This document shows positions 25,280 through 33,592 of a DNA stretch of 40,170 nucleotides, one piece after another. Made by a program: the position numbers and the translations under genes. Under the pieces are notes generated by a model. That model saw nothing but the letters and a program-made list of their open reading frames with translations, had not been told where the DNA came from and did no database searches. Source of the DNA: a virus; the IMG/VR virus record IMGVR_UViG_3300022690_000439, positions 1-40,170 of that record. The stretch is one strand, 5' to 3'. Numbering within the stretch: position 1 is the stretch's first letter; the number at the start of each line of letters is the position of its first letter.

Positions 25280-25557
25280 AAGTTTAAACACCTTTTTGTT
25301 TGATCTAACAACTCTTGCTCAGTGCCAAAGTTACTTTCAAATGATTCCCTTCCAGCATGGACCGCTTCGCCGTTATTACCCGTTCTATGATGAAAGGGGC
25401 ACAATGGTATTGTTTCATAGTTACTTGCGCGTTTTGACAGGGTTCCGTTGCCAACGTGGTGTATTTCTGCCGGAGTCCCTTCAAATCCAAGATTACAGCA
25501 AACAATACAACCCAAACCGGCAACCTTGCTTAAATATTTACTTTCTGCTTTTTTCAT
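25276..25557 (-). CDS. Ref-like HNH nuclease
   Basis: A 93-residue product: YLSKVAGLGCIVCCNLGFEG ... AEIHHVGNGTLSKRASNYETIPLCPFHHR ... AVHAGRESFESNFGTEQELL. Cys17/Cys20 and Cys53/His56/His57 would bind zinc, and His33-His34 make up the HNH active site. The layout is that of RecA-dependent nucleases of the P1 Ref type (PF16786), frequent beside DUF1367 and nin-region genes. Start overlaps the methyltransferase stop. Confidence 0.78.
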   Translation of the reverse strand: MKKAESKYLSKVAGLGCIVCCNLGFEGTPAEIHHVGNGTLSKRASNYETIPLCPFHHRTGNNGEAVHAGRESFESNFGTEQELLDQTKRCLNL

Positions 25558-25570
25558 TTCATCAACCTAT
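25554..25570. repeat. 17-bp direct repeat, left copy (methyltransferase boundary)
   Basis: TCATTTCATCAACCTAT occurs here and at 26261-26277, at both ends of the methyltransferase gene. On the coding strand it spells the RLMK end of the upstream gene, stop, and the next ATG. Start-to-start distance is 707 bases. Confidence 0.85.
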
Positions 25571-26264
25571 TTTTTGCTATTTCAAAGTAAGCTTCATCCA
25601 TTTCAATGCCGGTAAAGTCACGGCTTAGGTTTCTAGCAGCAATTGGTGTGGTACCGCCACCAAAACAAAAGTCCACAACATGATCGCCCTCATTGGTATA
25701 TGACTTTATTAGCCACTCCATGAACTCAACAGGCTTTTGGGTTGGGTGGTAACTGCCTTTTTGTTTGTCGCTAGAGAATTTTTGAACACTCCTAGGGTAT
25801 CGACTTGTTGATGAGTAGTCGGTTTTAACTATGCTCTTGCCATAACATTCAGATTGAACAGGCTTTCTTTTTGTGGAAACCATTTTGTGCCCGTGCGTCA
25901 TTTGAGGGTTAAATGTTGGCAGCTTGTTGTAGAATACAAGCGCTGTTTCGTGCGCCCTAAGTGGCATCTTTTTAGCATTAAGAAATCCAGTAGCGTTGGG
26001 TTTCTCCCATACCAGATCATATTTAAACATGGGCAAGTTACTGCAGGTTAATACGCTGGTAAATGGTTGAGCACAAGTAAGTACGATAACGCCACGAGGC
26101 TTAATTATCCGTTTTAATTGTTCCCACATTAACTCGAGGTCAATAATTGAATCCCATTTACAGCGAGTGGTACCGTAAGGTGGATCGGCTAACACCATAT
26201 CGATACTGCAGTCTGGTATTTCTTTCATTCGCTCGAGGCAATCGCCTAGCATTAAATTAATCAT
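25554..26264 (-). CDS. Beta-class DNA methyltransferase, copy 1
   Basis: A 236-residue protein. Catalytic motif ADPPYG is N-terminal (27-30 DPPY) and AdoMet motif I (DFCFGGGTT, about 198-206) is C-terminal, which is the beta order of N6-adenine/N4-cytosine enzymes. HPTQKP and ATGFLNAKKMP are also seen. Motif I reads FCFGGGTT instead of the usual FxGSGTT but keeps the key glycines. It shares about two thirds of residues with the copy at 29453. Methylates the phage genome, probably to evade restriction. Confidence 0.85.
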   Translation of the reverse strand: MINLMLGDCLERMKEIPDCSIDMVLADPPYGTTRCKWDSIIDLELMWEQLKRIIKPRGVIVLTCAQPFTSVLTCSNLPMFKYDLVWEKPNATGFLNAKKMPLRAHETALVFYNKLPTFNPQMTHGHKMVSTKRKPVQSECYGKSIVKTDYSSTSRYPRSVQKFSSDKQKGSYHPTQKPVEFMEWLIKSYTNEGDHVVDFCFGGGTTPIAARNLSRDFTGIEMDEAYFEIAKNRLMK

Positions 26265-27870: not shown

Positions 27871-28725
27871 TTAATTCCACACCATAATTTCAACCGTGTT
27901 TCGGCCTTTCTTTTTAGTCGACGCGCATCTGTCGGTTGTTGTTTTTAATATTCTAACTTTATACTTTTTGATCCAAGCATCCAGCTCATGGTTTTTTATA
28001 TCGTTCGCTATTAGCTGATTAAAATAAACAAACTTGGTGTCAGACTCGACAGCGAGATCTATTTTATTAAACAGTGCTATATCTTGTTTCTCAGCCCATC
28101 CAGTAGACTCGTTATAGGTTGCCGTAGTGTTTGAGTAGGGAGGATCGATTAATACAAGATCGAAATCGCAAAAATTTATATCCGAGTAGTTCATATTAAC
28201 AAAGTTAATATACCTGCCTTTTATTGCGCGTTGATAGTTCGATAGTTTGCTTTTCATTCTTTTGTTAAAGCTGGATCTGTTTTTGCCAAAGGGCATATTG
28301 AAACCGCCTTTTAGATTGAACCTAAGCTGGTTATTAAATGAATTTGTCATTAGTAAATAAAGCTTATCCGCGCTAGGGGATTCGTTATATTCTCGCCTCA
28401 AATCCAAAAATGCAGGCTCGTTTATTTTTGACATCCCTCTATTATCGAACTCTGAAGATATTGACTCAACGGTTATCAATCCAGACTGTACCGCAAGGTG
28501 AAGCCCAATGACTTTATTAGAAATATCACTAGCGGTAATACTCCACGCTTTAGGTAATTTTGATATTAAATCACCGCCGCCAACAAATGGATCTAACACT
28601 TTTAAGTTTTTATCTGCGGCACGAGGCAGTACTTCGAAAAGCTCTTTTAAATAACGATGCTTTGAACCGGTATAATTAAACGGGTTTGAATATTCCGCTT
28701 TCAGGTATTCGGGTTTTATATTCAT
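27871..28725 (-). CDS. Dam-like DNA adenine methyltransferase
   Basis: A 284-residue alpha-class (D12) enzyme: NPFNYTGSKHRYLKEL (14-29) as in Dam NyfkY.GgK, AdoMet motif VLDPFVGGGDL (about 43-53), and catalytic LIDPPYSNT (DPPY near 193). Length is normal for this group. It would methylate adenine, for example GATC in Dam, but specificity cannot be read here. The third methyltransferase in the leftward unit. Confidence 0.85.
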   Translation of the reverse strand: MNIKPEYLKAEYSNPFNYTGSKHRYLKELFEVLPRAADKNLKVLDPFVGGGDLISKLPKAWSITASDISNKVIGLHLAVQSGLITVESISSEFDNRGMSKINEPAFLDLRREYNESPSADKLYLLMTNSFNNQLRFNLKGGFNMPFGKNRSSFNKRMKSKLSNYQRAIKGRYINFVNMNYSDINFCDFDLVLIDPPYSNTTATYNESTGWAEKQDIALFNKIDLAVESDTKFVYFNQLIANDIKNHELDAWIKKYKVRILKTTTDRCASTKKKGRNTVEIMVWN

Positions 28726-29452: not shown

Positions 29453-30172
29453 CTATGCTGAATCTATTCGCTCTTTGGCGAGGTTAAAATAACCCTCATC
29501 CATTTCGATACCAATAAAATCACGGTTTAGGTTTTTTGCTGCAACGCCAGTGGTACCGCTTCCCATTGTAAAATCTAAAACCGAGTCACCTTCGTTGGTG
29601 TATGTTTTTATTAGGTACTCCATTAGCGCGACTGGCTTTTGAGTTGGGTGTAAATTGCATTTTTGCTTGTCAGAGCTGAACTTTTGAACGCTTCTTGGGT
29701 ACCGACTTGTTGAGTCGTAATTTGTTTTTTCAAATGTCTTGCCATAGCATTCGGATTTAATACCAACTCTCTTTGTTTTAACCCTTTCGTGACCGTATGT
29801 AATTTGAGGGTTATACGTTGGGAGCTTACTGTAAAAAACCAATACATTTTCATGCGCCTTTAGGGGCATCTTCTTGGCGTTAAAAAACCCTGACGCTGCA
29901 GGTTTCTCGTATATCCATTCGTACCTTAACATTGACAGGTTTGAAGCTCCCAAAACTTTGTCGAATGGCGTTTGAGCCATTAACACTATTACGCCATTAG
30001 GCTTGATTATTCTTTTTAACTGCGGCCACATTAAATCAAGATCAATTAAAGAGTCCCATTTACACATGGTCGTACCATAGGGCGGATCGGTAAATATCAT
30101 ATCGATACTGCAGTCTGGTATTTCCTTCATTCGCTCGAGACAATCCCCTAGCATTAATTTTATTGCTGCCAT
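29453..30172 (-). CDS. Beta-class DNA methyltransferase, copy 2
   Basis: 239 residues. DPPYG (29-33) and motif I DFTMGSGTTGVAA near the C-terminus, both fully canonical. It shares most of its sequence with copy 1 at 25554-26264; their first 60 coding bases (from the start inward) differ at only 3 positions. Divergence concentrates in the central target-recognition part (LMAQTPFDKVLGASNLSMLRYEWIYEKPAASGFFNA), so the two may modify different sites. SD AGGGGTATAGA. Confidence 0.87.
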   Translation of the reverse strand: MAAIKLMLGDCLERMKEIPDCSIDMIFTDPPYGTTMCKWDSLIDLDLMWPQLKRIIKPNGVIVLMAQTPFDKVLGASNLSMLRYEWIYEKPAASGFFNAKKMPLKAHENVLVFYSKLPTYNPQITYGHERVKTKRVGIKSECYGKTFEKTNYDSTSRYPRSVQKFSSDKQKCNLHPTQKPVALMEYLIKTYTNEGDSVLDFTMGSGTTGVAAKNLNRDFIGIEMDEGYFNLAKERIDSA

Positions 30173-31430: not shown

Positions 31431-32810
31431 TTAATCTTCCCAATCAAGTTGTTTCTTTTTTTGATAATTTTTAGTTTGTTCGTTTTGCATTGTCATAATG
31501 CGATTAACTTCTGCCGGCTCAACATTATTCATTATGCCGTTAATCATATTTACATAAGCTGTGCCTGTTGCGCCATGGCGGTTAGCTCTTACAATAAGCT
31601 CTGTAAGCCCACCTAAGCCACAATTTTCATCATAAGCAGACTCGCGGTATATCATTATAATTCGGTCTGCATCCTGCTCGATTTGCCCTGTCTCGCGTAG
31701 GTCACTCATGATTGGCCGTTTATCATTTCGAGACTCGAGACCGCGATTTAATTGTGCCAGTAAGAATACTGGAACCTTTAAATCTTTGGCCATGTTTTTA
31801 AGTCCCTTGGTTATGGCGCCAATGGCTAAATCATTTCTGTCTGCCTTTTCAGCTTTCATCAGCGTTAGATAATCAATGAATATCGCACCAATTGAACCTT
31901 TTTTAGCTTTCATTTTTCGGCACTCACCGCGGATATACGACAATGACATATTGGTGCGATCATCAATGTAAATATCAGTTTGGGCCATCTTTGCTATTGC
32001 ACAGTTAACCGCATCAAATTCAATATTACCCATTGGCTGATAGAAATTGTCAGTGGCAACTTGAGAGCTGCTAGATAGCATTCGTTCAAATACTTGCTCG
32101 TTTGACATTTCCATTGAGAAAACCATTACAGGCTTTCTGGTGGTGGTGGCTATATGCTCGGTCATCTTTAGTGCAAGTTGAGTTTTACCCATCTTTGGTC
32201 TTGCTCCTATGACAATGAGATCGGTTTTTCCAACTCCGCGATTGCCAAATAAATCATCAAGACCGGTAATGCCTGTCTTTATTCCTGCCGCGTCAGGGTT
32301 GTTAATTCTCTCTTCGTAAATATCAAGCCATGCCATGGCTATATCTTTAACGTGGGTAACGCCACCTTGGCCAATTGAATTATCCTGCTCAATAGTTGCC
32401 ATTAATGACGCTATATCGTTAATCTTATCTTTGGAACTGCCAACACCCGTTAAAACTGCTATAGATTCGTTTAATTTGGCCAGCGTTACCCGTTCTAAGC
32501 TACGTTCTTTTATTAGTTGAACATACCCACTAATATTAGCTGCGGAGTGAACGGTTTTGATTATAGAGCCAATGTATGTAAGCGCGTCACCGCCTAGTTG
32601 ATCTGCCATGATTAGCAAGTCGATTGGCTCACCGTTGAAAAATAATTGTTTTTGTAGTGAGAATATTTTTTGGTTCTTAGTTTTATAGAAATCCTCTGGC
32701 GTTAATTGGCTAAACGCTTTTGCCAATGCCTCACTTCCTAATCCCAATTTAAAAACAGAGCCTATAAAGTTTTCCTCTGCTTCGATATTAAACGCTTGCC
32801 ACTGGTTCAT
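31431..32810 (-). CDS. dnaB: Replicative DNA helicase (DnaB type)
   Basis: A 459-residue protein. N-terminal DnaB domain (residues 1-105), linker, then RecA-like core: Walker A GARPKMGKT (202-210), VFSMEMS (about 229-235), Walker B GAIFIDYLTLM (about 292-302), VFLLAQLNRGLE and RADRIIMIYRE-type segment. Full length. It forms the hexameric fork helicase for phage DNA replication, loaded by the upstream initiator. Overlaps the initiator gene by ATGA. Confidence 0.93.
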   Translation of the reverse strand: MNQWQAFNIEAEENFIGSVFKLGLGSEALAKAFSQLTPEDFYKTKNQKIFSLQKQLFFNGEPIDLLIMADQLGGDALTYIGSIIKTVHSAANISGYVQLIKERSLERVTLAKLNESIAVLTGVGSSKDKINDIASLMATIEQDNSIGQGGVTHVKDIAMAWLDIYEERINNPDAAGIKTGITGLDDLFGNRGVGKTDLIVIGARPKMGKTQLALKMTEHIATTTRKPVMVFSMEMSNEQVFERMLSSSSQVATDNFYQPMGNIEFDAVNCAIAKMAQTDIYIDDRTNMSLSYIRGECRKMKAKKGSIGAIFIDYLTLMKAEKADRNDLAIGAITKGLKNMAKDLKVPVFLLAQLNRGLESRNDKRPIMSDLRETGQIEQDADRIIMIYRESAYDENCGLGGLTELIVRANRHGATGTAYVNMINGIMNNVEPAEVNRIMTMQNEQTKNYQKKKQLDWED

Positions 32811-33592
32811 TGAGTGCCTCCAAAGTTACTTAGTCGTTGCTCTCGAGCTTTCGCAATTGTTTCTTCACGTAATAAATACTCGAGGTCTGCTTTCCATTTT
32901 CCTTCGGTGCCAAATATCCAAGAGTGATCACCGCGGTTATTCCACAGCCAATTAAAATAGCCTTCAACTCTTTCGATCCCGTGCTTGCCTTCTCGAGTCC
33001 AGTATTTCTTGATCGCTGTTTTTCTTTTAGTCGTTAGTGTTTGCATATTAACTAACGCCATTCCGCACTCACCAGTATCGACCAATATCGATTGATACAA
33101 ATCAGCTATCTTTTTATAAGGGACTTTATCGACCTTTTTAGGTTGCTCTGATTCGGCAGAATCTGACATATCTTTCTTGTTTTCATTATTAACATTATTG
33201 TTTGTTGCCCCTGTCGTGCCCTCATCGTGCCCTTGCTGTGCCCTTGCTGTGCCCTCGTCATTCTGATTTGATTGATAATCCTCATAGTTACATATAGTTA
33301 TAATGCTAGTAACTGTGCCCTTTTTTACACTTATCATCCCGTTGCTTTCAAGCATCGAGAGAAGTCCTCTAACCTTTTTTACCGTCCATCCGAACTCTTT
33401 TGCTAGTCCTGATAGGCTTCTTGCTATCTGTCCGCGCTTGCATTCTACGAGCGTTGATTTGATTAAAAACTTATTGTCCTTGTGGTTAGCCAGCATTATT
33501 AAATGAACCCAGGCTTGACCTTTTGAGAAAGGCTGATCCTTCCATAGCCAGTGGTCGGTGATGCTCCTATGTATGCTCACCCATCCCTGCAT
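32807..33592 (-). CDS. Replication initiator (O-like)
   Basis: A 261-residue protein. N-terminal winged-helix domain (about 1-95, GWVSIHRSITDHWLW ... LSGLAKEFGWTVKKVRGLLSMLESNGMI) as in phage replication/initiator proteins, a low-complexity linker (about 108-155), and a C-terminal domain for helicase contact (YWTREGKHGIERVEGYFNWLWNN). Immediately upstream of the helicase. The linker DNA contains five 11-bp tandem repeats, so the origin probably lies inside this gene. Confidence 0.83.
   Translation of the reverse strand: MQGWVSIHRSITDHWLWKDQPFSKGQAWVHLIMLANHKDNKFLIKSTLVECKRGQIARSLSGLAKEFGWTVKKVRGLLSMLESNGMISVKKGTVTSIITICNYEDYQSNQNDEGTARAQQGHDEGTTGATNNNVNNENKKDMSDSAESEQPKKVDKVPYKKIADLYQSILVDTGECGMALVNMQTLTTKRKTAIKKYWTREGKHGIERVEGYFNWLWNNRGDHSWIFGTEGKWKADLEYLLREETIAKAREQRLSNFGGTQ
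33206..33260. repeat. Five 11-bp tandem repeats (iteron-like origin)
   Basis: TGCCCCTGTCG, TGCCCTCATCG, TGCCCTTGCTG, TGCCCTTGCTG and TGCCCTCGTCA follow without gaps at 33206, 33217, 33228, 33239 and 33250. 11 bp is close to one DNA turn, so they face one side of the helix. AT-rich stretches lie on both sides (33181-33204; 33261-33310), suited to unwinding. The layout mirrors the lambda ori inside gene O. Confidence 0.85.

Follow-up and report, generated by a model that had tools for sequence, protein, structure and literature searches.

Organization of the initiator gene and its neighbours

The window analyzed here is IMG/VR record IMGVR_UViG_3300022690_000439, positions 1 to 40,170, and the repeats that concern us are read on its minus strand, which is the strand of the gene that contains them. 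The genes and coding segments at this locus are as follows.

32807-33592, minus strand: initiator gene of 261 codons (product P0001), with a winged helix at residues 1-107, a disordered linker at about 111-150 and a helical C-terminus
33272-33592, minus strand: coding sequence of the winged-helix DNA-binding domain, residues 1-107, assigned from profile, fold comparison and AlphaFold2
33344-33382, minus strand: coding sequence of the predicted recognition helix, residues 71-83, including Lys72, Lys73 and Gly76, assigned from AlphaFold2 and iteron covariation
32807-33142, minus strand: coding sequence of the C-terminal helical part, 91% identical in the natural chimera L001
31431-32810, minus strand: DnaB-like replicative helicase (PF03796, 4e-77; phrog_19, 6e-102), the start of which overlaps the end of the initiator gene by four bases

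The initial annotation had called P0001 an O-like initiator, and this is supported by its profile matches to phrog_2514 (DnaD-like helicase loader; 1.4e-37 over residues 1-165) and phrog_345 (replication initiation O-like; 2.4e-29 over residues 2-254). No Pfam family, Phage_rep_O (the lambda O family) included, was matched at E ≤ 0.01. When the PDB was searched by sequence, P0001 itself had no match and its profile gave weak matches to GntR-type winged helices; a fold search returned nothing at E ≤ 0.001, its top ranks being held by winged-helix/wHTH regulators such as CRP, CodY, HlyU and MarR, with no initiator among the matches listed. Taken together, the sequence profile and fold comparisons point to a winged-helix DNA-binding domain in general. 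The AlphaFold2 model, built with 50 aligned sequences, has a confident winged helix to residue 107 with a helix at 71-83, a low-confidence stretch at 111-150 and a helical C-terminus.

An array of 11-bp iterons in the linker

The direct repeats sit within the initiator coding sequence, between the DNA-binding domain and the C-terminal part, and the linked helicase gene follows the initiator gene. The array and the DNA that flanks it are composed as follows.

33206-33260, minus strand: iteron array of five contiguous 11-bp units with the core AGGGCA, encoding residues 111-129 of the disordered linker
33206-33216, minus strand: iteron CGACAGGGGCA, closest to the downstream AT-rich stretch
33217-33227, minus strand: iteron CGATGAGGGCA
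33228-33238, minus strand: iteron CAGCAAGGGCA
33239-33249, minus strand: iteron CAGCAAGGGCA, second copy
33250-33260, minus strand: iteron TGACGAGGGCA, closest to the winged-helix coding sequence
33143-33205, minus strand: AT-rich stretch downstream of the array within the gene, encoding an Asn/Lys-rich linker; proposed unwinding element
33270-33310, minus strand: second AT-rich stretch, encoding the end of the winged helix, of low stability and coinciding with a family-wide bump

The unit starts given previously (33206, 33217, 33228, 33239 and 33250) are exact, and the irregular peptide attributed to the array agrees with its translation, EGTARAQQGHDEGTTGAT. Its placement in the linker also holds, as residues 111-129 fall inside the low-confidence stretch of the AlphaFold2 model. 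Identity at lag 11 reaches 34/44 at the array, which is the maximum of the window, and in 200 first-order Markov sequences of equal length it never exceeded 29. A weight matrix of the unit had its five best matches in the whole window within the array, and no additional iteron scoring near the array was found elsewhere in the window. Tandem Repeats Finder (TRF) called just 2.6 copies (33227-33255) because the outer units diverge in their variable half. A single partial GGGCACAG at 33313-33320 falls where the wing is encoded, at a distance of 66 bp (6 x 11) that keeps it in phase with the array; as a single copy in such sequence it was treated as a chance occurrence. Iterons of the lambda type have inverted symmetry. 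The 11-bp unit described here is non-palindromic, with a best identity of 4/11 to its own reverse complement.

AT-rich DNA had been noted on both sides of the array, and this was borne out by duplex stability, since 33165-33205 and 33270-33310 rank within the least stable 1.7 and 1.4%, respectively, of the 40-bp stretches of the window. The average over homologues likewise has an AT-rich, A-rich bump at +75 to +120 nt past the motif that ends the winged helix, and another at -30. In this AT-rich linker (33143-33205 in the window and 75-120 nt past the motif in the family) the A content of the coding strand is 0.54, and many relatives have runs of AAT, GAT or AAG, reminiscent of trinucleotide unwinding elements or simply of Asn/Lys codons. 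A check proposed earlier, which presumed a circular map, expected cumulative GC skew to turn at about 33.2 kb. This was not what we found: the local turn is at about 33.8-33.9 kb, 0.6 kb away, and the global extremes are at 127 and 24607. The local turn coincides with the switch in transcription strand, indicating that skew tracks gene orientation and is uninformative on the origin, and it was therefore dropped as a marker.

Constraint at the DNA level

The 11-bp score of the linker was 28/33, while 20,000 synonymous recodings with the gene's own codon usage had a mean of 17.5 and a maximum of 27; since no recoding equalled the observed repeat, the peptide does not force the array. Between relatives, mismatches in the iteron zone were spread over the three codon positions at 0.27, 0.27 and 0.26. 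The ratio of position 3 to the mean of positions 1 and 2, calculated over disjoint pairs, was 1.03 (0.92-1.14) in the iteron zone vs. 2.10 (1.90-2.33) in the winged helix, and the linker past the iterons retains codon structure, so that the pattern of the iteron zone is not merely that of a relaxed linker. The earlier proposal that selection acts on the DNA and not on the protein is thus upheld, and the codon-position and synonymous-shuffle tests led us to reject readings of the array as a neutral VNTR or as a pure protein repeat.

A broader form of the neutral explanation, a slippage-prone tandem repeat that is tolerated in a disordered linker and has no function as DNA, deserves consideration. 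It would fit with the array encoding a disordered segment, and with copy number shifting by whole units: L214 (742-1416) differs from the near-identical L207 by the in-frame loss of 33 bp, equal to three 11-bp units. As these two relatives illustrate, a change of copy number free of frameshift is possible just in steps of three units. Several results given below are left unexplained by slippage.

A lattice at a fixed place in the initiator family

Homologues were collected either with a protein profile or through the motif ITICNYxxYQ, which marks the end of the winged helix, in both cases blind to repeats, and 166 non-redundant ones (<80% identity in the domain) were retained. Just past the motif, the best period was 11 in 81 of them, 12 in 26 and 22, 23 or 24 in 25 (132/166, about 80%), against 0/165 with any of these periods in a control stretch inside the domain. 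No period was found in 15 of the 166, and the array is thus not universal in the initiator family. Period-9 calls were rejected as iterons because they mostly reflect Asn-rich codons of the AT-rich linker. In 157 homologues the lag identities past the winged helix were 0.486 at 11, 0.426 at 22, 0.394 at 33 and 0.384 at 12, vs. 0.275 at 10 and 0.279 at 13; in control stretches of the same genes lag-11 identity was about 0.27. Synonymous recodings were beaten at p ≤ 0.01 by 98 of the 157 genes for period 11 and by none for period 10. Slippage leaves unexplained why 11 and 12 are preferred to 10 and 13, as well as the fixed place of the arrays and the AT-rich DNA that flanks them.

Named phages were chosen by tblastn, independently of the survey. 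An 11/22 lattice at the same place was present in Staphylococcus phages PVL, SAP33 and phi879, Bacillus phages Page and Ray17, Lactobacillus phage phiAT3, Sulfitobacter phage pCB2047-A, Pseudomonas phage Orisa01, Pseudoalteromonas phage HS2, Vibrio phage 1.133.O and Enterococcus phage Efs 1-1-1, and a weaker one in HK022. No 11-bp lattice was seen past the winged helix in Listeria phage A118 gp49 (L244) or Paenibacillus phage Xenia (L246), and the homologous initiator of Brevibacillus phage Davies (L249) has a 24-bp unit and no 11-bp lattice. When the arrays were aligned by a family motif, all 103 of 103 lay on one strand, an observation that we set aside as evidence because the A-rich composition of the coding strand alone favours one strand. 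The alignability of the arrays (431 vs. 381-393 in column-permuted controls) was in modest excess.

Joint inheritance of protein and iterons

The natural chimera L001 has a C-terminal part 91% identical to that of P0001 and a winged helix only 31% identical; its repeats, in which GATGACA recurs at 11 and 22 bp, bear no relation to those of the window. Conversely, iterons are shared in 223 pairs whose winged helices are the same but whose C-termini are unrelated, with a mean similarity of 32.7 vs. a background median of 8.4 (near-copies included). Judged from these comparisons, iterons travel with the winged helix and not with the C-terminus. The initial annotation had named relatives that lack the repeats while keeping the linker as counter-evidence; there was no such case among the relatives examined, and the sole one with the same C-terminus, L001, differs in both winged helix and iterons.

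That module-exchange joints fall beside the array, as in L001, may suggest a role in another DNA transaction, such as a partition site, a recombination hot spot for module exchange or a site for a host factor. Iteron arrays occur in plasmid centromeres too, as is generally known. However, the proteins searched included none recognisable as the product of a partition gene, and the covariation described next is with the encoded winged helix itself, so we consider a role of this kind extremely improbable.

Covariation was assessed in 82 disjoint pairs after overall divergence was removed. Change in the iteron correlated with change in the recognition helix (residues 69-83; segment p = 0.0003), and Gly76 was the strongest covarying residue (familywise p = 0.001). 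The wing segment covaried weakly (p = 0.045), and the other winged-helix segments showed no covariation at segment level in these pairs.

A scan of 2.9 million viral contigs for AGGGCAC-N4-AGGGCAC-N4-AGGGCA, which used no protein information, gave 33 loci, 24 of which are in open frames with this winged helix, normally directly behind the domain. Among the others, L287 has a weak match to a broader winged-helix profile; L256 (2356-2500) has an initiator-like ORF of 347 aa with two separate GGGCAC iteron arrays and a helix, VKKVR, that resembles the one in the window, its winged helix falling below profile detection; and L282, truncated at the end of its contig, has the linker signature of the family. 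In L271 (3634-3661), L276 (2774-2801) and L278 (4772-4799), the AGGGCAC 11-bp triplet lies outside initiator-family genes, in AT-rich DNA that is apparently non-coding and has inverted copies nearby; these three may represent either a differently arranged origin or a satellite-like mimic.

All ten groups with a full domain (<85% identity) carry Lys where P0001 has Lys72; besides the window they comprise nine others, which share 27-37% identity with it. In 175 rows, Lys72 is present in 14/15 lineages with GGGC iterons vs. 8/160 without, and several of the latter 8 carry other G-runs. When the helix columns are left out of the tree, GGGC requires 13 changes, some of them on branches with weak support, and is therefore scattered, not inherited once. 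The strongly supported branches force only 3 changes, giving 3 independent pairs, too few for a significant sign test on Lys72.

Both the concentration of covariation in the recognition helix and the recovery of the same protein family by the iteron sequence alone are unexplained by slippage, and we regard a neutral repeat as very improbable.

Comparison with known phage origins

In lambda, the initiator binds iterons that lie, with AT-rich DNA, inside its own gene (PMC7466680, PMC8022706). The initial annotation had cited lambda ori as precedent; this stands as regards the kind of element, an intragenic origin, but lambda is not the nearest case, which is found in phages L and Sf6, with 11-bp repeats in O-like genes. 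Lambda ori in gene O (and Stx phage ori) resembles the window in having iterons and AT-rich DNA between the DNA-binding and C-terminal parts, but consists of four to six iterons of ~20 bp bound by O dimers, whereas the window has non-palindromic units of 11 bp. Lambda also uses a P-type helicase loader, while the window has a phage DnaB helicase and an initiator without a Phage_rep_O match.

Homologous genes, annotated O or 18, are carried by phages L, Sf6, HK75, HK022 and others. For phage L, six 11-bp repeats within gene 18 have been published as a putative origin (PMC8022706), and in the records of Sf6 and L the homologous gene has an annotated putative origin that consists of 11-bp repeats. 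In Salmonella phage L gene 18 and Shigella phage Sf6 gene 43 (MW013502, NC_005344), as in the window, a homologous O-like initiator gene is followed by a DnaB-type helicase gene, and 11-bp direct repeats in coding sequence directly past the winged helix are followed by AT-rich DNA. Their initiators are only about 25% identical to P0001 and their repeat, TGTCCAACGGA, forms two groups of three with a spacer, whereas the window has five contiguous units with the core AGGGCA, placed right past the winged helix of the homologous initiator. The gene 18/gene 12 module of P22 has the same pair of O-like initiator and DnaB-type helicase, but gene 18 carries four repeats of ~20 bp (PMC8022706) in place of 11-bp units. 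The DnaD-like initiators of Gram-positive phages (PVL, SAP33, phi879, Page, Ray17 and phiAT3) share the winged-helix domain of the window and have an 11/22-bp lattice right past it, although their C-termini and helicase-loading partners are unlike those of the window; no description of iterons in these initiators was found in the open-licence literature searched. This kind of intragenic origin is already known, and the window adds a new repeat word to it.

Alternatively, the initiator may bind its own gene mainly to control transcription or elongation, with the origin located elsewhere. Many repressors have a winged-helix fold, and covariation shows just that the protein recognises the repeats, not why. 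However, the array is more than 300 bp inside the gene and beside DNA that is among the least stable of the window, the same element is annotated as a putative origin in phages L and Sf6, and lambda O provides the precedent of a proven intragenic origin (PMC7466680). We therefore assign a low probability to an operator with the origin elsewhere, while noting that operator and origin roles of the array can coexist.

Proposed function of the array and its implications

The array is very probably the initiator-binding part of the phage replication origin, embedded in the initiator's own gene. Comparison with relatives (lattice, cassette and covariation) lends good support to the initial reading as initiator iterons forming a lambda-like intragenic origin, and from this family comparison and from lambda we infer binding, assembly order, unwinding, helicase loading and origin activity. 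The winged helix of P0001 would bind each 11-bp unit via its recognition helix, with Lys72 and its neighbours reading the G-run. As each unit spans about one helical turn, several molecules could line up head to tail along the same face of the DNA, winged-helix monomers occupying successive units. Such a complex would strain the AT-rich DNA beside it (most likely 33143-33205) to the point of opening, and the C-terminal part of the initiator would deliver the phage DnaB-type helicase (31431-32810) to the bubble. The coding sequence may tolerate the array because a disordered linker is encoded there, and protein and target may be inherited as one cassette because the array adjoins the winged-helix sequence.

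At the sequence level, an array of this kind recurs at the same position in hundreds of related phage genes; each has a word of its own, which covaries with the predicted DNA-reading helix. We consider it fairly probable that this extends to a general rule, in which the winged-helix initiators of a very large phage group spanning hosts in Proteobacteria, Firmicutes and Bacteroidetes carry a self-encoded origin, an 11- or 12-bp one-turn lattice fixed past the DNA-binding domain. Its word would be set by few recognition-helix residues (e.g., Lys72 for GGGC), origins and specificity would be readable from the initiator, and protein and origin would evolve and recombine as one cassette. Such a family-wide rule (fixed place, 11/12-bp lattice, cassette inheritance and helix-iteron correspondence) was not found in the open-licence literature searched, although the review of phage replication modules by Weigel and Seitz (cited in PMC6669507) may contain part of it.

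These results locate a candidate origin in an unannotated phage and suggest that origins across a large class of phages and prophages may be recognised by a simple rule, namely an 11/12-bp lattice just past the winged helix. The covariation of helix and repeat offers a testable reading code for initiator-origin pairs, and it is such pairs that determine whether phages, hybrids and satellites are able to replicate together. The array also illustrates clearly how substitutions within coding sequence can obey a constraint at the level of DNA and not of codons.

A minus-strand gene run of the window also includes two DNA methyltransferase genes of one family, phrog_67 (25554-26264 and 29453-30172), and a D12-class adenine methyltransferase is located at 27871-28725.
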